A stretch of 64,000 bases of DNA from Virgisporangium aliadipatigenens (GTDB taxonomy: Bacteria; Actinomycetota; Actinomycetes; Mycobacteriales; Micromonosporaceae): assembly GCF_016863615.1 (NCBI RefSeq), contig NZ_BOPF01000010.1, positions 186,001 to 250,000 on the forward strand, read 5' to 3'. Below are positions 55,309-63,899 of the stretch, one piece after another. The position numbers and the translations under genes were made by a program. The notes beneath the pieces were generated by a model. That model made no database searches. It had not been told where the DNA came from and saw only the letters and a list, made by a program, of their open reading frames with translations. Every line of letters starts with the position of its first letter. Position 1 is the stretch's first letter.

Positions 55309-56994
55309 TCAGTAGGTGCGGATCTCCACCTGCCGGAACGCCACCGCGTACGGCGCCTCGCCCCCGGGCTGCATGGCGATCCCCAGCGTCACCGTCTCGC
55401 CCGGCCTCGGCGTGCTCGCGTCCGGCAGCCGGAACTTCCCCTGCGACCGGTTGTCGCGACGCAGTTCGACGTCGGAGCCGGTGAGCCGGAAGCCGATACG
55501 CGTGGGCACACCGCGCTCCACCGCCTCGGCGAGGTTGGTGGAGCCGACCACCGTGGGTGCGACGTCGGGGCGGTGCAGGTGGACCTGGGCCGTCCCCTCG
55601 CACACCCGGTACTCGTAACCGGAGTCCTCGCGGGCGAGGAACCAGATCGCGGCGCACGAACCGGCCCGCAGCAGCACGATGTCGACCTCGACGGACTGGT
55701 CGCCGGTGATCCGGTCGGCCGGCCCGGGGCAGCGCAGCGCCCCCTCGACCTCCTGCTGCACGTACAACACGCCCTTGGTGAACGAGCAGCTACCGCCGTC
55801 GGCCGCGCCCGGCGACCACCGCCCGGGTGCGGTGAGCGGGTCGGAGATCGTGACCGGCCGACGCGCCGGCGCGGCGGGTGCCCCGGAACCGGCGCCGTTT
55901 CCGGGCTGCCGCACGGACTGCGCGGTCGTGGTGGGACCCGTGCCGGCGTCGGCCGCCGGGGGCCGGTCGGTGAGCACCAGGGCGACGGCCGTCGCGACGG
56001 CGGCGGCGGCGAGTGCGCCGGTGACGGCGAGGCCGCGCTTCGCCCAGTTCCGGCGGGGGGCCGGGGTCGTCCAGGCGGCCGGGGCCGGCCGTGCTGCCGC
56101 GGGCACCCGTGCGGATCCGGTCGACTGCGTCACGGGCGGCACGTACCCACCGCTGGAACCGGAGCTGAGCAGCAGGTCCAGCAGCTCCCGGGCGGTGGGG
56201 CGGTTGCGCGGGTCCTTGTCGAGGCACACCTGCACCAGCTCGCGCAGCGGCGGCGCGAGGTCGTAGAGGCGCGGCGGCTCCGAGATGATCTGGAACGCGG
56301 TGGCGGTCGTGGAGTCCGCCCCGTAGGGCGGCTGACCCGTTCCCGCGAACGTCACGACGCCGGCCCACGAGAAGATGTCCGACGCGGGACCGGCCGGCAC
56401 GCCCGCGGCGCTCTGGATCCGCTCGGGAGCGGTGTAGGAGACCGTGCCGAGGATCAGGTCGGTGCGGGTCAGCCCGTCGGAGGCGTCGAGCGCCTGCGCG
56501 ATGCCGAAGTCGATCACCTTGGGGCTGCCCGGGGCGAGCAGCACGTTCGCCGGTTTCAGGTCGCGGTGCACGACGCCCGCGCCGTGGATCGCGGACAGCG
56601 CGGAGGCCACCCCGATCGCGAGGCCGTGCAGGTTGCCGTGGCGCAGCGGGCCGCGCCGTTCGACCTCCGCCTCCAGGCTGGGCGCGTCGACGTACTCGAC
56701 GACGAGGTACGGCCGCTCGTGGTCCGGGTCGGCGTCGAGCACCGCCGCCGTGCAGAACGGCGGCACCTGCCGCACCCGGCGCACCTCGGCCCGGAACCGC
56801 GCCCGGAAGACCTCGTCGGCGGCGAGGTGCGGTCGGATCACCTTCACGGCGACCGGCTGCTCGTTGCGGTCGAGGCCCAGGTACACGGTGCCCATCCCGC
56901 CGGAACCGAGCCGCCCCACCAGCCGGTAACGGCCGATCGACCGTGGGTCATCGTGACGCAGCGCCTCCACGCGCCCGTCCGATCCCCTGGTCAT
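55309..56994 (-). CDS. Receptor-type Ser/Thr protein kinase
   Basis: A 561-residue PknB-like kinase. Residues about 22-285 are the catalytic domain: glycine loop GSGGMG (30-35), Lys 51, HRDLKPAN (143-150), DFG (162-164) and TAPERIQ, all intact. A Pro/Ala linker leads to a membrane helix at about 330-352 (VTGALAAAAVATAVALVLT). The extracellular part (about 395-561) is a beta sandwich with cysteines (SCSFTKG and ALRCPG) resembling laminin-G or DUF1080-like domains, probably the ligand sensor. No PASTA repeats are present. It is divergent from the amidohydrolase-like lipoprotein gene. Confidence 0.93.
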   Translation of the reverse strand: MTRGSDGRVEALRHDDPRSIGRYRLVGRLGSGGMGTVYLGLDRNEQPVAVKVIRPHLAADEVFRARFRAEVRRVRQVPPFCTAAVLDADPDHERPYLVVEYVDAPSLEAEVERRGPLRHGNLHGLAIGVASALSAIHGAGVVHRDLKPANVLLAPGSPKVIDFGIAQALDASDGLTRTDLILGTVSYTAPERIQSAAGVPAGPASDIFSWAGVVTFAGTGQPPYGADSTTATAFQIISEPPRLYDLAPPLRELVQVCLDKDPRNRPTARELLDLLLSSGSSGGYVPPVTQSTGSARVPAAARPAPAAWTTPAPRRNWAKRGLAVTGALAAAAVATAVALVLTDRPPAADAGTGPTTTAQSVRQPGNGAGSGAPAAPARRPVTISDPLTAPGRWSPGAADGGSCSFTKGVLYVQQEVEGALRCPGPADRITGDQSVEVDIVLLRAGSCAAIWFLAREDSGYEYRVCEGTAQVHLHRPDVAPTVVGSTNLAEAVERGVPTRIGFRLTGSDVELRRDNRSQGKFRLPDASTPRPGETVTLGIAMQPGGEAPYAVAFRQVEIRTY

Positions 56995-57195: not shown

Positions 57196-58107
57196 GTGAA
57201 AGCCGCCTGTACCGGTGTTTTCCGGTCGGTTTCCGCGATGGTCGGCGTGCTGCTGCTGGTGCTCACCGCGTGCGGCGCCTCGGGTGTGGCACGCTCCCTC
57301 CCGGTGAACGACGACGACCCGGCGAGCGTGATCGCACACGCCGTCGCGAGCCTCGACAAGTTCGGCCCGTACCGCGACCCGTCGACGGCCGAGGCCGAAC
57401 AGGGCCGCGCCGTCGCGCGTCTGATCCTCGACGCGCCCGCCGACACGGCCGGCCTGGACAGGGCCTTCGGCGGCCTCGGCTACACCCCGAAGCACGGCAC
57501 CGACCCCGCCACCGGGCGGCCCTACGCCATGTACACGATGCCCACCGACGCCGAACCGGCCTGGGGCACCGTGCTCATCGACCGCACGAGGCCGGTGCGC
57601 GCGGTCGTCGAGGTGCCGCACCCGGCCGCCGACCTGCACACCGAGGTCATCGGAACGGCGCTGCACCGCCTCCTGCCGGGCTCCGTGCTGCTGGTCGCCG
57701 GCGCCCACCGGGACGCGGCCGGCGGCAAGGGCGACGTGGCGCACAACGACCGGTCGATGTTCCACATCCTGGCCACGGAGTTCGCCGGGCGCGGCATCCC
57801 GCAGATCCAGCTGCACGGCTTCGCCGACCGCAACCTGCCCGAGCGCGAAGCGGTCGTCTCCACGGGCAGCGGCCCGACGAGCGCGCTCGCCGAGGGCGTC
57901 GCCGCCGCGTTCGGCCGGGCCGGGTTCAACACCTGCCGGGCCTGGGCCGAACCGTGCGGCCGGCTCGAGGGCACCCGCAACGAGCAGGGGATCGCGGCGG
58001 CCGCGGCCGGGGCGGCGTTCCTCCACGTCGAACTGGGCTACGCGGTGCGCAGCAACCCCTCCCGCCGCGACCTGGTCGCAAAAGCCGTCGTCGATGCCCT
58101 CGGCTAA
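57196..58107 (+). CDS. Amidohydrolase-like lipoprotein, possible poly-gamma-glutamate hydrolase
   Basis: A 303-residue lipoprotein with signal VSAMVGVLLLVLTACGAS (lipobox LTAC). The mature part has a pattern of metal-binding residues: EVPHPAADLHTEVIG, LLVAGAHRDAA, DVAHNDRSMFHIL, IQLHGF and a late LHVELGYAVR. The layout resembles zinc amidohydrolases of the N-formylglutamate deformylase and poly-gamma-glutamate hydrolase group. The pgsB/pgsC genes 2 kb away make action on a gamma-glutamyl polymer plausible, but this is inference from context. The TAA stop is 10 bases before the next start. Confidence 0.65.
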   Translation: MKAACTGVFRSVSAMVGVLLLVLTACGASGVARSLPVNDDDPASVIAHAVASLDKFGPYRDPSTAEAEQGRAVARLILDAPADTAGLDRAFGGLGYTPKHGTDPATGRPYAMYTMPTDAEPAWGTVLIDRTRPVRAVVEVPHPAADLHTEVIGTALHRLLPGSVLLVAGAHRDAAGGKGDVAHNDRSMFHILATEFAGRGIPQIQLHGFADRNLPEREAVVSTGSGPTSALAEGVAAAFGRAGFNTCRAWAEPCGRLEGTRNEQGIAAAAAGAAFLHVELGYAVRSNPSRRDLVAKAVVDALG

Positions 58108-58123: not shown

Positions 58124-58447
58124 ATCGACCTCGACGCGCGCGCCGGTGACGTCCTCACCGCCGACATCGTGGCCACGAAGGCGCAGCAGCGCTGGGCCGT
58201 CGTGCGGCTCTTCGCTTCGAGCCTGATCTGCGCCCTGCTGGACATGGGCGGCTCCCGGCCGCAGCCGGTCATCCAGGCGGCCAACCTGATCGTCACCCGC
58301 CTGGACACCGGCGAAGAGGTGTGGCGCACCCCCGCGCACATCGCCGACCTCGAGCTGAAGACCCACGTGCAGCGCCAGCTCGACGAGCTGACCGTCGCCG
58401 AGTTCTACGACGCGTGGGGCATCATCGACCCGGAAGCCGCCGCCTAG
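58118..58447 (+). CDS. Small conserved-looking protein, unknown function
   Basis: A 109-residue protein starting at GTG 58118, or at ATG 58094 with eight more residues. It is soluble, with alternating strands and helices (VLTADIVATKAQQRWAVVRL, NLIVTRLDTGEEVWRT, LTVAEFYDAWGI). No family is recognised. A -10 hexamer stands at leaderless distance and the start codon is inside a copy of the 13-bp palindrome. It follows the lipoprotein gene by 10 bases and its last four bases overlap the stop of the convergent NlpC/P60 gene. Confidence 0.65.
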   Translation: MDIDLDARAGDVLTADIVATKAQQRWAVVRLFASSLICALLDMGGSRPQPVIQAANLIVTRLDTGEEVWRTPAHIADLELKTHVQRQLDELTVAEFYDAWGIIDPEAAA

Positions 58448-59481
58448 ACGCGTCTCGCCGTGCGCCAGCGGATGGCCCAGTAGCCGGTGCCGTCCAGGAT
58501 GGACTCCCCGGCCAGGTCGCCCATGGTGGGGCCGTTCGCCTGGCTGCGGCTGGAGATGAAGCGGTGGTGGCCCCGGTCGTCCACGCCGAGATACATGCCC
58601 GAGTGCTCGATGTTCGCCCCCTGCACCGGTCCCGCGTTGAAGAAGAGCATGTCCCCGGGCATCAGCCGGTCCATGTCGGTGGCGCGCTTGCCGGTGTTCT
58701 GCATCAGCTGCACACCCGGCCCCACCCCGGCGATCGCGAACGCCTGACGCGGCAGGCCCGGCCCGCCGGCGTTGGTGCCACGCACCGGGTAGCCCATCCG
58801 GTACCCGTAGACCATGCGCAGGAAGCCCGAGCAGTCGAGGCTGCGGAAATGCGTCTGCGACGGCTGTTCCTGCTTGTCGGAGAAGTTCCACCCGACGCCG
58901 AGGTAGTCGTAGAAGTCGGAGTTCTCGGCGCGGCCGTCGGGGTCGATGTCCGACAGGGGGCCGAACTCGGCGTCGCCGCCGATCTGCTGCCCCTGGGCGT
59001 TCTTCTTCGCGGGAGCCCCGTCGATGTACTCCATCGCGATGCCGATCGCGTCCGGGCTCTTGTCCGCCAACGCCTTCGGGAACCAGTCGGTGAACCACTG
59101 CTCCTTCTCCGCACCGGCCTTCCACTCCTGCGGGGCGAGGCGCACGTAGATGTCGTTCGTCAGCTTGGCCTTGGTGAAGCGCGGCTCGGCGAAGGTCCGC
59201 TGGGCGCCGGTGAGGTGCACGGTGCGCGCGCCGTCGGTCATGACGGCGATGCGGGTGCCGTCCGCGCGGACGGCCTCGGTGCGGTCGGGTCCGGAGGCCC
59301 GGCGGTAGGTGAGGCCCGACGGGTCGGCCGACACCGGTGCGTCGCCCGCCGGGGCATCGGGACCGGCGCCGACGGCGGCGGGCGGCTGCGCGTCGGAACG
59401 CGTCATCGTGAACGCGACGGCACCACCGGCGACCAGGGTCAGGACGGCGGCGGCCATGAGCAGGGGAGAACGGTCATTCAT
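58444..59481 (-). CDS. NlpC/P60-family exported hydrolase of the pgs operon
   Basis: A 345-residue protein with an N-terminal signal anchor (LLMAAAVLTLVAGGAVAF). The C-terminal domain is NlpC/P60-like: catalytic Cys in LDCSGFLRMVYGYRMGYP (about 217) and His in NIEHSGMYLG (about 293), with a further polar residue in HHRFISSRSQ. Such enzymes cut gamma-D-glutamyl bonds in peptidoglycan or other gamma-glutamyl polymers, so it could trim or release the polymer made by PgsBC. It starts four bases after pgsC (TGATCACATG), as the last gene of that operon. Confidence 0.85.
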   Translation of the reverse strand: MNDRSPLLMAAAVLTLVAGGAVAFTMTRSDAQPPAAVGAGPDAPAGDAPVSADPSGLTYRRASGPDRTEAVRADGTRIAVMTDGARTVHLTGAQRTFAEPRFTKAKLTNDIYVRLAPQEWKAGAEKEQWFTDWFPKALADKSPDAIGIAMEYIDGAPAKKNAQGQQIGGDAEFGPLSDIDPDGRAENSDFYDYLGVGWNFSDKQEQPSQTHFRSLDCSGFLRMVYGYRMGYPVRGTNAGGPGLPRQAFAIAGVGPGVQLMQNTGKRATDMDRLMPGDMLFFNAGPVQGANIEHSGMYLGVDDRGHHRFISSRSQANGPTMGDLAGESILDGTGYWAIRWRTARRV

Positions 59482-59485
59482 GTGA

Positions 59486-59977
59486 TCACGTCGCAGGAAC
59501 TAGGCCGGCCACGACTCCGCTGAACGCGACCCCGAAGGTCACCGCGGTCACCATCACCGTGGCCAGGATGGTCGCCTTCGGCGGCTGCCGCACGAGCTGG
59601 TACGCGATCAGCCCCGGGGCGACAAAGCCCAGGGTCTGGTGCGCGAACAGCAGCGGCAGGTCCCGCTGGACGGCGATGAACAGAGTGAGCTGAAGGAACA
59701 CGCTCAGCAGCACGACCGCGGCGAAGAGCCGCTTGCCGTACAGGATGACGAACTTCTGCATCAGTTCGGTGAGCAGATACGTCACCACAGTCATGATCAC
59801 GATGATCGCGGCCTGCAACGGGTCCTCGATCAACGCGAGTGCGATCCACCCCGGCGTGATCATCCCGCCGGGCGACAGGTTGGTCGTCAGGTAGCACATG
59901 AGGGCGAAGACCAGCCCGATGCCCAGGCACGCCGTGGCGAGCTGGGCGCTGAGTTCACCCCCGAAGCTGAGGCTCAC
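59486..59977 (-). CDS. pgsC: PgsC/CapC-like poly-gamma-glutamate synthesis membrane protein
   Basis: A 163-residue integral membrane protein with about five helices. It matches PgsC in the segment LSPGGMITPGWIALALIEDP, followed by VVTYLLTELMQKFVILYGKR and LLSVFLQL, and in size (about 150 in Bacillus). PgsC forms the membrane synthase with PgsB. GTG 59977 is used since family sequence begins there; the 23-base overlap with pgsB is compatible with coupled translation. The symbol is given on similarity; a gamma-linked polymer other than poly-glutamate is possible. Confidence 0.82.
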   Translation of the reverse strand: MSLSFGGELSAQLATACLGIGLVFALMCYLTTNLSPGGMITPGWIALALIEDPLQAAIIVIMTVVTYLLTELMQKFVILYGKRLFAAVVLLSVFLQLTLFIAVQRDLPLLFAHQTLGFVAPGLIAYQLVRQPPKATILATVMVTAVTFGVAFSGVVAGLVPAT

Positions 59978-61175
59978 GGCGCCCGCTCCTCTCTTCCTGG
60001 TCCCAACCGGGGCACTCGTCGAGCTGGTGGATGAGGATCTCGCCCTGGCCGTGGATGTTGCCGACGGCGACGATCGACGAGTCGGCATCGGTCGCCGAGA
60101 CCACCCCGTCGAGGAGCTGTTCGGGAGGCAGCTTGCCGCCGAGGTCGGTCACCCGGTCCTGCAGCCCGGCCGGGATCGTGGCGCGGGCGCTGCGCGTGGG
60201 CTCGCCGATCAGGACGATGTTCTCCGGATCGATGTCCTTGCACAGCGCTCCCATCTGCCCGTTGCGCTCCACGCGGTCCGGGCGGCAGTTGATCAGAACG
60301 GTGAGCGGCCGGCCGATCAGCCCCTGCTTCTCCAGCTGGCGGATGTTCATCAGGGTGGACTCGGGGTCGTTGGCGGCGAAGACGTTGGCGAAGCGGATCT
60401 TCTTGCCGCGGTGCACCTTCCGGCTCACCGACAGCACGCCCGGGTCCGGGGGAGCGGCCCACATCCCGGCCAGCGCGTACCTGCGGCCGACGCCGAGCTG
60501 TTCGGCGACCGCGAGGGCGATGGCGACGTTCTCCTTGAACGTGATCCAGCCGAACCCCGCCATCTCCCGGTCGCTGACGGTCTCCGGGTCGACGGCGATC
60601 AGCCGGCAGTCGCGCCGCCGCGCCTCCTCCTCCAGGATGTGCAGCCGCTCCTTCTCGGCCGTGATGCACACGCCCCCGATCGGCATCGAACGGCACAGCG
60701 ACCGCGCCACGTCGTCGAGCGTGGGACCCATCTCGGCGAGGTGGTCCTCGCGCACGTTGCACAGCACGCCGATGGTGGAACGGATCAGCTTCACCTGGTT
60801 GATCTCCTGCAGCGCCGGCATGACGGCCATGCACTCGATCACCATCGCGTCCGGCCGGTACACCGAGGCCCGGCGCACGATGCCGATCTGCTCGACGACG
60901 TTCGCGATGCCGAACTTGCGGTGCACCGGCTCCTCGCTCCCGTCCGGGAAGACGAACCGGGCGGCCGTCCCGGTGGTCTTCGCCACGACCGAGAGCCCGC
61001 CGCCGCGCAGCGCGCCCGCACACAGCCGGGTGATGGAACTCTTGCCGCGGATGCCGTTCACCAGCACGCGATGCGGGATGGTGTCGAGGTTGCGGTCGTG
61101 GTTGCGCTGCTCGATCACCCCGGCGACGAGCAGGCCGAGGCAGCTGAGCGTGAAGACCGTGTAGAGATAGAGCAC
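59955..61175 (-). CDS. pgsB: PgsB/CapB-like poly-gamma-glutamate synthase, ATP-dependent ligase
   Basis: A 406-residue ligase of the Mur-ligase-like family, close to PgsB length (about 390-400). An N-terminal membrane helix (LYLYTVFTLSCLGLLVAGVI) is followed by HRVLVNGIRGKSSITRLCAG (ATP-binding GxxGKSS), VVAKTTGTAARFVFPDGSEE, MVIECMAVMPALQEI, LCNVREDHLAEMG and a late VLINCRPDRVERNGQM. These are hallmark PgsB segments. The enzyme adds glutamate through gamma-carboxyl activation with ATP. Its GTG overlaps the stop of the HAMP protein (TAGTG). PgsA/CapA, normally needed for export, is not in the window. Confidence 0.9.
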   Translation of the reverse strand: MLYLYTVFTLSCLGLLVAGVIEQRNHDRNLDTIPHRVLVNGIRGKSSITRLCAGALRGGGLSVVAKTTGTAARFVFPDGSEEPVHRKFGIANVVEQIGIVRRASVYRPDAMVIECMAVMPALQEINQVKLIRSTIGVLCNVREDHLAEMGPTLDDVARSLCRSMPIGGVCITAEKERLHILEEEARRRDCRLIAVDPETVSDREMAGFGWITFKENVAIALAVAEQLGVGRRYALAGMWAAPPDPGVLSVSRKVHRGKKIRFANVFAANDPESTLMNIRQLEKQGLIGRPLTVLINCRPDRVERNGQMGALCKDIDPENIVLIGEPTRSARATIPAGLQDRVTDLGGKLPPEQLLDGVVSATDADSSIVAVGNIHGQGEILIHQLDECPGWDQEERSGRREPQLRG

Positions 61176-63388
61176 TACACCCGCACCTCGTCGTCCTTGC
61201 GCTGCACCAGATCCAGCGACAGCACCGTCGTGTAGTTGTGTTCCGAGCCGCGCAGCCGCACCGCACCGCCGAAGCGGGCCGTGCCGGTGTGCCGCACCTG
61301 CCGGCAGATCTCCAGGCACATGGCGAGCGCGCCGATGTCGTCGTGGCGCTGCGGCGGCACGGGCGCGTCGAGCGAGCCCGCCGAGATCTGGTCCGCCACG
61401 GCCGCCAGCTGCTTGAGCGGCCGCACGAAGATGAGGAACTGCCACGCGAACGTCAGCAGCACCACGCCGGCCGCGGCGCCGCCCACGAGCAGGGTCCAGC
61501 GGCGCACCAGCACCTCGGGCAGGTGCAGCACGGCGACGTCGCGTTCGACCACGACGACCCAGTCCAGCGCGGCGGCCGAGGGCGGGTCCTGCACCTTGGA
61601 TGCGGCGATCAGGGCCGGCTCGCCGGCGCCGGTCCGGGTGCGCCCGAGCGTGCCGCCGGGCCGGACCGCGGTGGCCACCTCGCGCGCCAGGTCCCCCTCG
61701 AGCCGCTGGTACGCCCGGAAACCCTCGGAGTCGAGGATCACCCGCGAGTCCCGGTCGACCACGCGGGCCCGCCCGTCGACCGTGCGCACGATCGCGAGCA
61801 GGTTGTCGACGTCGAACTCCCCGACGACCGCGTACCCCTTGTCGAGCGCGCGGTGCGCGTAGAGCAGCGGCAGCCGGCGCAGCCCGGGGTCGAGGTCGAC
61901 GCCGTTGCGGGCCGGAACGGGCGCCTGCGCGCGCAGCGGTTCACGGCCGGCGGCCCGCACCGTGCGGCCGGCCCCGTCGACGATGTACAGGTTGCGCAGC
62001 CGGTGCTCCTGCTCGAGCCCCTGCTTCAGGGCCGCCTCCGCCGCGTCGGCATCGGCCGCCGGGTCGCCGACCGGCACGCTCAGCACGGTGCGCAGGCCGT
62101 TCTCGACGGCGTTGCCGAGGGCCGCGGTGGCGTTCTCCGCGCGGCTCTCCTCGTCGATGCCGAGCTGTGCCGGCACCGGCGGCAGCGGCGTCGACATGAC
62201 GAACCCGACCGCCGCCATCGGCCACAGCAGCCCGAACGCGGCGGCGAGCCCGAGCCCCTGCAACACGCTCGGCAGGAACCGCCGCCGCGGCAGTTCCGAA
62301 CCGGAGACGACCGCCAGCGCGCTCGCCACCCGGTACGGCTCGGCGACGTGCACGGGCCGGCGGGCCTGCGACGGCATCCCGCACGCGTCGCGCTTGGCCT
62401 GGTGCAACGCGATGCGCAGCGGCTGCACGAGCGACACGCCCATGAGCCACACGCACAGCGCCGCGATCGCCAGGAGGCTGCCGCCGAGCAGCAGGCCCAC
62501 GCCGACCGACGGCCCGGGCACGACCGGCGCGATCAGCAGCGACGCGACGCGCACGCCGGTGTCGCCGACCGGCGCGACGGACAGCACGAGGCGCTGGTCG
62601 GTCCAGCCCTTGACGGCCACGCTGCGCACGGTCGGGCGGGTCGCGGCCGTCGTGTCGCCGAAGACCAGCCGCAGCTGACTCCGGTCGACGGCGCTGACCC
62701 CCTGGACCAGCGACGTCGTGCCGCCCGGAGTGATCATGAAGACGCCGGCCTTCGCGGCCGGGTTGAGGCGCTGGTTGCGCAGCAGCAACGGCTGCATCGC
62801 CAGCACGCTGCGCTTGTCGTCCAGGCGGGTGTGGTGGATCAGCGCCGGCCCGTCGCCCGTGGTCACCGCGGTGGTGCCGCCGAGCGGGACGCCGTTTCGC
62901 AGCAGCTCGAACGGGAGCGCGACGCCGGTGGCCGCGATCTGCTTGCGATCGGCGGTGGTGATCAGCGCGGCACCGCTCCAGATGGTGCGGTCGCCGACCA
63001 CGGCGGCGAGCAGCTGGGCGTCGGCGGGCGGCTTGGCGCGCAGCCCGGCGACGGTGCGGTCGAGGTCCTCGACGGCGCGGCCGGTGCTGCCGTTGAGCGA
63101 CCGGCTCATCTTCGTCGTCAGGTCGAGCTGCGACTCCTGGACGGCCTGCGGCACGTCGATCTTGTCATGGAACGCGAACCCGGCCACCGTCACGATCGCC
63201 ACGAGCGTCATCGCCCACAGGTAGACCAGCGACGGCGCACCCGCCCCGGCCGGGAACCCGGCGGAGGGCAGCTGCTGCTCCAGTGCCCTTTTCCGCCACG
63301 CCAGCAACTGATGGGGCGGTCCACCGGAGGGAGGTTCACCGAAGTCCCGGCGGGCGCGCGGCCGGCCGGATGTCCGGGTTTCCACCAT
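61175..63388 (-). CDS. Double-sensor HAMP membrane protein, first gene of the pgs operon
   Basis: A 737-residue protein with four membrane helices (about 53-72, 295-320, 376-397 and 631-655). Two extracytoplasmic domains lie between them (about 73-294 and 398-630); the second resembles a Cache-type sensor (RLRNLYIVDGAGRTVRAAGR, then ARVVDRDSRVILDSEG). A clear HAMP domain (about 655-700; VRPLKQLAAVADQISAGSLD) follows the last helix and a HAMP-like stretch follows helix two. No kinase, cyclase or methyl-accepting domain is present; the C-terminus is about 35 residues of unknown type. Translation is coupled to pgsB, so it may regulate or scaffold polymer export. ATG 63388 is the start; upstream is shared with the FKBP gene. 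Confidence 0.85.
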   Translation of the reverse strand: MVETRTSGRPRARRDFGEPPSGGPPHQLLAWRKRALEQQLPSAGFPAGAGAPSLVYLWAMTLVAIVTVAGFAFHDKIDVPQAVQESQLDLTTKMSRSLNGSTGRAVEDLDRTVAGLRAKPPADAQLLAAVVGDRTIWSGAALITTADRKQIAATGVALPFELLRNGVPLGGTTAVTTGDGPALIHHTRLDDKRSVLAMQPLLLRNQRLNPAAKAGVFMITPGGTTSLVQGVSAVDRSQLRLVFGDTTAATRPTVRSVAVKGWTDQRLVLSVAPVGDTGVRVASLLIAPVVPGPSVGVGLLLGGSLLAIAALCVWLMGVSLVQPLRIALHQAKRDACGMPSQARRPVHVAEPYRVASALAVVSGSELPRRRFLPSVLQGLGLAAAFGLLWPMAAVGFVMSTPLPPVPAQLGIDEESRAENATAALGNAVENGLRTVLSVPVGDPAADADAAEAALKQGLEQEHRLRNLYIVDGAGRTVRAAGREPLRAQAPVPARNGVDLDPGLRRLPLLYAHRALDKGYAVVGEFDVDNLLAIVRTVDGRARVVDRDSRVILDSEGFRAYQRLEGDLAREVATAVRPGGTLGRTRTGAGEPALIAASKVQDPPSAAALDWVVVVERDVAVLHLPEVLVRRWTLLVGGAAAGVVLLTFAWQFLIFVRPLKQLAAVADQISAGSLDAPVPPQRHDDIGALAMCLEICRQVRHTGTARFGGAVRLRGSEHNYTTVLSLDLVQRKDDEVRV

Positions 63389-63530: not shown

Positions 63531-63899
63531 ATGAGCAAGCCCGAGGTCGAGCCGTACATCGGCGACCCGCCCGCCGACCTGGTGATCGAGGACATCAAGG
63601 TCGGTGACGGCGAGGAGGCGCGTGCCGGCCAGACGGCCACGGTGCACTACGTGGGCGTCGCGCACTCCACCGGCGAGGAGTTCGACGCCTCGTACAACCG
63701 CGGGGCGCCGTTCCAGTTCCAGCTCGGTGCCGGGCGCGTCATCGCCGGCTGGGACCAGGGCGTCGTCGGCATGAAGATCGGTGGCCGCCGCAAGCTCGTC
63801 ATCCCGCCGCACCTGGGCTACGGCGCGCGCGGTGCCGGTGGCGCGATCAAGCCCAACGAGACGCTGATCTTCGTGGTGGACCTGATCGGCCTGCCGTAG
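63531..63899 (+). CDS. FKBP-type peptidyl-prolyl cis-trans isomerase
   Basis: A 122-residue single-domain FKBP. ATG 63531 follows a weak ribosome site (GGAAGGAA). The fold motifs are intact: TVHYVGVAHSTGEEFDASYN, then FQFQLGAGRVIAGWDQGVVG, GGRRKLVIPPHLGYGARG and the closing ETLIFVVDLIGL. Drug- and proline-binding aromatic residues (Tyr, Phe, Trp, Tyr) are present, so activity is expected. No signal peptide, so cytoplasmic. A stable hairpin lies downstream. Confidence 0.95.
   Translation: MSKPEVEPYIGDPPADLVIEDIKVGDGEEARAGQTATVHYVGVAHSTGEEFDASYNRGAPFQFQLGAGRVIAGWDQGVVGMKIGGRRKLVIPPHLGYGARGAGGAIKPNETLIFVVDLIGLP

Follow-up and report, generated by a model that had tools for sequence, protein, structure and literature searches.

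A duplicated Cache-HAMP receptor stands beside pgsB across actinomycetes: a possible receptor-gated poly-gamma-glutamate-type synthase in Virgisporangium aliadipatigenens

Introduction

Why does an operon for a surface polymer open with the gene of a membrane receptor? The question is raised by a locus of Virgisporangium aliadipatigenens that lies in a stretch of 64,000 nucleotides (contig NZ_BOPF01000010.1, positions 186,001 to 250,000 of the forward strand), called the window throughout. On its minus strand, from 63388 down to 58444, four tightly coupled genes encode a receptor with HAMP domains, PgsB and PgsC of a poly-gamma-glutamate (gamma-PGA) synthase and an NlpC/P60 peptidase-like protein. 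An original prediction had described these four coupled genes at 58444-63388 and a HAMP-bearing sensor protein of 737 residues, and both are present as described, but the gene set was one short, as the conserved gene of a hydrolase-fold lipoprotein at 57196-58107 had been left out.

The answer that we propose, and to which we give an even chance, is a receptor-gated poly-gamma-glutamate-type synthase whose polymer is trimmed by two surface hydrolases. We infer the following route. PgsB, as ATP-dependent ligase, and PgsC, as membrane subunit, would make a gamma-linked glutamate polymer and pass it out of the cell. A small molecule bound outside by the receptor would change the HAMP helices inside, and these would contact PgsB or PgsC and thereby raise or lower polymerisation. 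Outside the cell, the NlpC/P60 protein and the lipoprotein with a PghP-like fold might trim or release the polymer, and CapA (PgsA) would be an accessory part that was lost in the lineage of the window. The receptor is most likely a dedicated regulatory subunit of PgsBC, because it has no recognised output domain.

Results and Discussion

The Receptor Gene Is Paired With pgsB

The receptor gene (61175-63388, minus strand, 737 amino acids) is the first gene of the operon, and its TAG stop codon overlaps the GTG start codon of pgsB (TAGTG). Gene order was compared across actinomycetes, and the dedicated pairing of receptor gene and pgsB reaches far beyond the genome of the window. In the near set, which consists of the best 80 of 250 PgsB relatives of the window protein and comes entirely from actinomycetes, a profile search found a receptor homologue immediately before pgsB in 80 of 80 loci, and a tblastn search with a single sequence in 78. 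In the two loci negative with tblastn (L066 and L070; L and G numbers are our handles for loci and genomes) a gene of 771 residues precedes pgsB and scores above 830 bits with the receptor family profile. The gap between both genes is at most 11 bases in 67 of the 80 loci; PgsC is present in all 80 and the P60 protein in 79 (L054 is without it). As the near set also supplied the sequences for the profiles, its profile counts are partly circular.

We also drew 250 genomes of the family to which the organism belongs, in 29 of which PgsB exceeds its cut-off, at 33 places. With the window's own locus left out, the receptor gene is located directly before pgsB in 25 of 32 loci, of which 13 have CapA upstream and 12 do not. 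Nine of the 32 loci are shared with the near set, all nine with HAMP, and of the remaining 23 the receptor is found in 16. The seven receptor-less loci consist of five with PgsB-PgsC-P60-CapA, one with PgsB-PgsC-P60 and one with PgsB-PgsC alone. A class draw of 246 genomes contained PgsB over the cut-off in six genomes at seven places, and the receptor accompanies it in five of the six loci other than that of the window; the class-draw locus L117 also belongs to the near set. Specificity was analyzed in a class draw of 148 genomes, taken as part of the 246 and with five PgsB-positive members: the receptor family (E-value up to 1e-20) occurs there in four genomes with five copies, each beside pgsB. 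Profile searches of whole genomes were scored only for the top candidates in each (for example seven), so that distant copies may escape.

This conserved pairing fits a receptor that gates synthesis. Among the matches listed in the open literature, as far as titles and the first lines of abstracts tell, no HAMP or Cache receptor is described in a pgsB operon. In the PgsB tree 112 receptor-bearing rows are grouped with one receptor-less row (L163), but as the node support is 0.133 we do not claim a single origin of the pairing.

Clusters of other composition were also seen. A second cluster type in the window's family (L141, L154, L155, L171, L172, and L136) is without a HAMP gene and ends with CapA, in the order PgsB-PgsC-P60-CapA. 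In genome G069 a HAMP-less PgsB cluster (L118:3418-9844) is preceded by the gene of a 307-residue protein without Pfam match, and contains a double-length PgsC with two CapC stretches in 338 residues, a CapA-like protein of 771 residues as well as a distant hydrolase-fold family member.

The Receptor Is a Duplicated Sensor Without Recognised Output Domain

The predicted structure of the receptor (predicted local distance difference test, pLDDT, 89.0; predicted template modelling score, pTM, 0.80; 48 sequences) starts with a transmembrane helix at about residues 54-72, an extracellular Cache domain, a second transmembrane helix at about 295-313 and a HAMP-like segment. The same order is then repeated with a transmembrane helix at about 379-397, a dCache domain, a transmembrane helix at about 637-655 and a HAMP domain at 654-689, followed by a disordered tail. 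Both halves are homologous (hhalign E-value 4e-25, 318 columns aligned), and the E-value between their HAMP segments is 4.8e-14. Judged by these alignments, the receptor is a tandem duplication of a module of transmembrane helix, Cache, transmembrane helix and HAMP, which is why it has two HAMP segments.

By sequence, HAMP is the only Pfam family over its cut-off in the window protein, and dCache_1 remains far below (11.1 versus 45 bits). A dCache fold together with HAMP is nevertheless found, with the fold taken from the predicted model: most of the structures matched at a Z of about 16 belong to amino-acid chemoreceptors or to sensors of histidine kinases, and several of the matched ranges cover both halves, which makes the second sensor the clearer case. 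For the family we aligned the window protein with 47 of the 80 near homologues, picked for clean gene calls and diversity. A Pfam scan of these 48 proteins revealed HAMP in all 48, dCache_1 in 14 and a Collagen repeat in one; an output domain after HAMP was recognised in none of them, as had been predicted for the window protein. In five loci (L146, L147, L156, L165, and L168) the match to the HAMP family is broken in two, as though a divergent linker, a split or a frameshift lay between the two receptor modules.

HAMP domains normally relay signals to an output domain. This counts for an alternative in which the receptor serves a separate signalling chain, by way of a histidine kinase or another partner in trans, and merely shares the operon transcript. 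The variable C-terminal tail of the receptor and the existence of PgsBC without HAMP point in the same direction. A receptor with a partner in trans should, however, leave copies elsewhere in the genomes, and each of the five copies in the 148 genomes adjoins pgsB. Furthermore, no other neighbour is shared by more than 21 of the 80 near loci, and those neighbours that we read there look metabolic, although no search was made for a partner encoded elsewhere. We therefore regard a separate chain as unlikely and prefer the receptor as regulatory subunit of PgsBC.

This preference can be extended to a bolder combination, which we put forward tentatively and with some doubt. The receptor would be a subunit of the synthase, and an extracellular ligand would switch PgsBC allosterically via the HAMP helices, with neither phosphorylation nor a second messenger. 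With its tandem halves, one chain would already contain the paired HAMP bundle for which other receptors need two chains, and the lipoprotein would found a new family of gamma-PGA hydrolases.

PgsB, PgsC and the P60 Protein

PgsB (59955-61175, minus strand, 406 amino acids, GTG start), a Mur-ligase-like gamma-PGA synthase ATPase of the PgsB/CapB type, exceeds the curated TIGR04012 equivalog cut-off with 374 versus 222.7 bits. Its hallmark motifs are kept, in agreement with the original prediction: in an alignment of 60 rows, the window included, every position of the blocks GIRGKSS, ECMAV, NVREDHL and ANDPEST is at least 97% conserved, and the GIRGKSS block is presumably the ATP-binding loop. 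The membrane subunit PgsC/CapC (59486-59977, minus strand, 163 amino acids), whose gene starts within the end of pgsB, exceeds the gathering score of PF14102 with 125.6 versus 27 bits (E-value 1.8e-36). The direct neighbourhood of pgsB and pgsC is as expected of a gamma-PGA synthase operon.

The P60 gene (58444-59481, minus strand, 345 amino acids) starts 4 bases past the pgsC stop codon and encodes a protein with a hydrophobic N-terminus that exceeds the PF00877 cut-off with 30.3 versus 23 bits (E-value 4.5e-7). The candidate catalytic pair Cys217 and His293 is present; in the alignment of 60 rows the cysteine is found in 55 and replaced by serine in five, and the histidine is found in 60 of 60. 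Homology and gene position make the protein a possible polymer cutter, as had already been suggested. The serine stands in place of the expected cysteine in L050, L066, L070, L072, and L080, the same loci are without CapA and without the hydrolase-fold gene, and the genome of L066 also carries a complete second operon (L138).

CapA Is Probably an Accessory Lost in This Lineage

No capA gene is present at the window locus. The genome of the window encodes two remote PF09587 proteins away from the locus, and a close homologue of the operon-type CapA is missing, as the best score is 56.5 bits, or 57.7 bits with a second profile, compared with 481-596 bits for the 13 CapA genes beside the receptor in the family draw. 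The missing CapA, which had been noted before, had led to the idea that the sensor might replace it, i.e. that the receptor acts as export or stabilising partner of PgsBC. In addition to the window, 52 of the 80 near loci and 12 of the 25 receptor-bearing loci of the family draw are without CapA, five of the seven receptor-less loci of that draw have it, and five searched genomes with the receptor (the window's own, G294, G300, G252, and G256) have no CapA of at least 300 bits anywhere.

Against this idea, CapA neighbours the receptor in operon position in 28 of the 80 near loci (weak minus-strand matches of at most 57 bits at L049 and L078 were left out) and in 13 of the 32 loci of the family draw, where no significant association between the presence of the two genes is seen (Fisher p 0.43). 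In the PgsB tree, the 14 rows closest to the window protein represent nine distinct loci, and all nine have CapA together with HAMP, PgsB, PgsC, P60 and the hydrolase-fold gene. The predicted fold of the receptor is that of a sensor. Furthermore, Bacillus subtilis PgsBC functions without PgsA and makes an L-rich polymer (D/L 5/95 versus 75/25), according to the part of that paper available to us (PMC6029982; the other papers cited here by accession were likewise available in part), so that no replacement of PgsA is needed, and CapA is treated as accessory to polymer production in a further source (PMC5542703). The idea of a replacement is thus not supported, and we consider it very unlikely.

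We assume instead that capA was probably lost in the lineage of the window, beside a receptor gene that was already present, and the loss looks recent because all nine nearest distinct loci have CapA. The polymer of the window may be L-rich, as is that made by B. subtilis PgsBC in the absence of PgsA. That PgsB loci without HAMP exist suggests that the receptor is dispensable for synthesis as such, and regulation therefore fits better than a structural role. The opposite outcome, a capA gene elsewhere that serves the pair together with a sensor not kept beside pgsB, is not what we found, as the sensor is conserved there.

CapA could also be supplied in trans, and genomes of 19 of the 52 near loci without capA were tested accordingly: 17 have a CapA above 345 bits elsewhere. 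Six such places were inspected. At L134, L135, L137, and L139 the profiles used picked up no further operon gene, L136 is a second PgsB-PgsC-P60-CapA cluster and L138 a second full operon. Operon-type CapA of at least 300 bits is also found in 23 of 143 genomes without PgsB. A supply in trans is a weak explanation, since genomes without PgsB carry CapA too and the genome of the window has no such gene.

A Predicted Lipoprotein Whose Modelled Fold Resembles gamma-PGA Hydrolases

The fifth gene (57196-58107, plus strand, 303 amino acids) is convergent with the P60 gene and encodes a predicted lipoprotein with a lipobox-like start, as read from the sequence, and without Pfam or NCBIfam match. Its predicted model (pLDDT 91.6) resembles the phage gamma-PGA hydrolase PghP (3a9l; Z 14.4, root mean square deviation 3.2, 170 aligned residues; Foldseek template modelling score 0.58 by target length), the PM1 hydrolase (21dc, Z 14.1) and PghL (5onj, Z 13.5). 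PghP requires His40, Glu45, His78, His103 and Glu165, as far as the available part of the source goes (PMC6506827). In the hydrolase-fold family, represented by an alignment of the window protein with 38 members picked for clean gene calls and diversity from the 60 near loci in which the gene is present, His142, Glu150 (36 of 39), His183, His207 and Glu279 follow in the same residue order, with steps of 5/8, 33/33, 25/24 and 62/72 residues in PghP and the family, respectively. Order and spacing suggest these as the PghP-equivalent residues; rival catalytic candidates are Asp146 (39 of 39) and His171 (36 of 39). The distant member in L118 retains His142, His183, His207 and Glu279 and has Asp in place of Glu150.

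The gene accompanies the operon at 60 of the 80 near loci, where it lies downstream or, in divergent orientation, upstream. In the family draw it is seen at 16 of the 32 loci. Among the receptor-bearing loci of this draw it is present in 13 of 13 with CapA and in three of 12 without (p 1.1e-4). All five PgsB genomes among the 148 of the class draw contain the family, and it was found in no other genome of that draw. The PDB was searched by sequence with the family profile, and the best E-value of 0.26 is taken as chance. PF05908 matches none of the 39 members at E-values up to 10, and the Pfam family of N-formylglutamate amidohydrolases is not among the seven families matched by any of them. 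Away from the operon, the genome of the window encodes one PF05908 gamma-PGA hydrolase (G000:C2:615806-616354, L120) with 141.5 bits.

Several observations weigh against our reading of the locus. Gene pairing is no proof that the receptor contacts PgsBC, and the tail past the second HAMP is disordered and variable with no obvious docking motif. PgsB without receptor in seven of the 32 loci of the family draw and in L118 and L136 indicates that PgsBC can exist without it. Without the genome of the window, the Fisher values in the class draw (7.7e-6 for the receptor family and 5.4e-8 for the hydrolase-fold family) overstate independence, because a single genus accounts for three of the four other PgsB genomes. 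The hydrolase-fold gene is missing from 20 of the 80 near loci and from 16 of the 32 loci of the family draw. PgsC stays below the TIGR04011 equivalog cut-off (81.1 versus 96.45 bits), the model of the lipoprotein fits structures of the N-formylglutamate amidohydrolase type equally well (2odf, Z 14.5; 2q7s, Z 13.7), and hhalign gave no significant profile match between the family and PF05908 proteins (E-value 0.0098, probability 4).

The last three points speak for another gamma- or omega-linked amino-acid polymer as the product, with the hydrolase-fold protein as an N-formylglutamate-amidohydrolase-like enzyme of other function. Against this explanation speak the PgsB score, which lies far above the curated cut-off, a hydrolase-fold family that was found in all five PgsB genomes and in no others among the 148, and candidate residues of that family that follow the catalytic order of PghP in the accessible part of that study (PMC6506827). 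We consider it quite improbable and continue to assume a gamma-PGA-type product with the lipoprotein as a second, putative hydrolase.

Relation to Known Systems

PgsBC, P60 and dCache-HAMP proteins are each of already-known kinds. In the pgsBCAE operon of B. subtilis with pgdS and in capBCAE of Bacillus, PgsB and PgsC are adjacent as they are here, and pgdS is located near the B. subtilis pgs operon. As in the window operon with its P60 gene, a hydrolase of the C40 (NlpC/P60) type, PgdS, serves the B. subtilis system, and CapA is optional for polymer production in Bacillus, as described in the portions of the papers at hand (PMC6506827, PMC6029982, PMC5542703). In contrast to these systems, the window operon opens with a duplicated Cache-HAMP receptor, has no CapA and is accompanied by a second hydrolase gene, by fold, without Pfam match. 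In B. subtilis regulation takes place at the level of transcription through DegSU and ComPA, according to the part of the source available (PMC5751247), whereas a receptor is proposed for the window system.

The lipoprotein shares its predicted fold with PghP of phage phiNIT1, PghL/YndL and PF05908, and its candidate residues follow the order H, E, H, H, E, but it has no PF05908 match, differs in the first and last residue steps and is a chromosomal predicted lipoprotein encoded beside a synthase. Its likeness to the N-formylglutamate amidohydrolase 2q7s and the related 2odf contrasts with a family that has no Pfam match and is genomically linked to pgsB. The receptor has the architecture, with a dCache domain between two transmembrane helices and a following HAMP, and the fold in common with dCache chemoreceptors and histidine kinases such as PctA/B/C and McpB, but it carries two such modules in one chain and no Pfam output domain in the 48 proteins.

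Among the matches listed in the open literature, titles and abstract beginnings mention neither a constant association of PgsBC with a duplicated receptor that lacks an output domain nor the hydrolase-fold family. If our reading is true, control of a surface-polymer synthase would lie with a receptor within its own complex, which would be a short route from an outside signal to the polymer, and HAMP domains would act on an enzyme not fused to them. For a set of actinomycetes, including Streptomyces, one would then predict a gamma-PGA coat whose on/off input can be tested. Furthermore, there would be a new candidate family of gamma-PGA hydrolases, possibly useful for cutting such polymers.

Neighbouring Genes

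At L062:11221-12237 and similar loci of Streptomyces, one gene family occurs in 16 of the 80 near loci and follows the P60 gene in 15 of these, and one member is weakly similar to beta-propeller lectins (18.7 bits versus a cut-off of 200). In the window, a Ser/Thr protein kinase-like gene (55309-56994, minus strand) adjoins the hydrolase-fold gene, and a small FKBP-type peptidyl-prolyl isomerase-like gene (63531-63899, plus strand) is divergent from the receptor gene, both named from reading of the sequence alone. The FKBP-type-like gene occupies the side where many relatives have capA.

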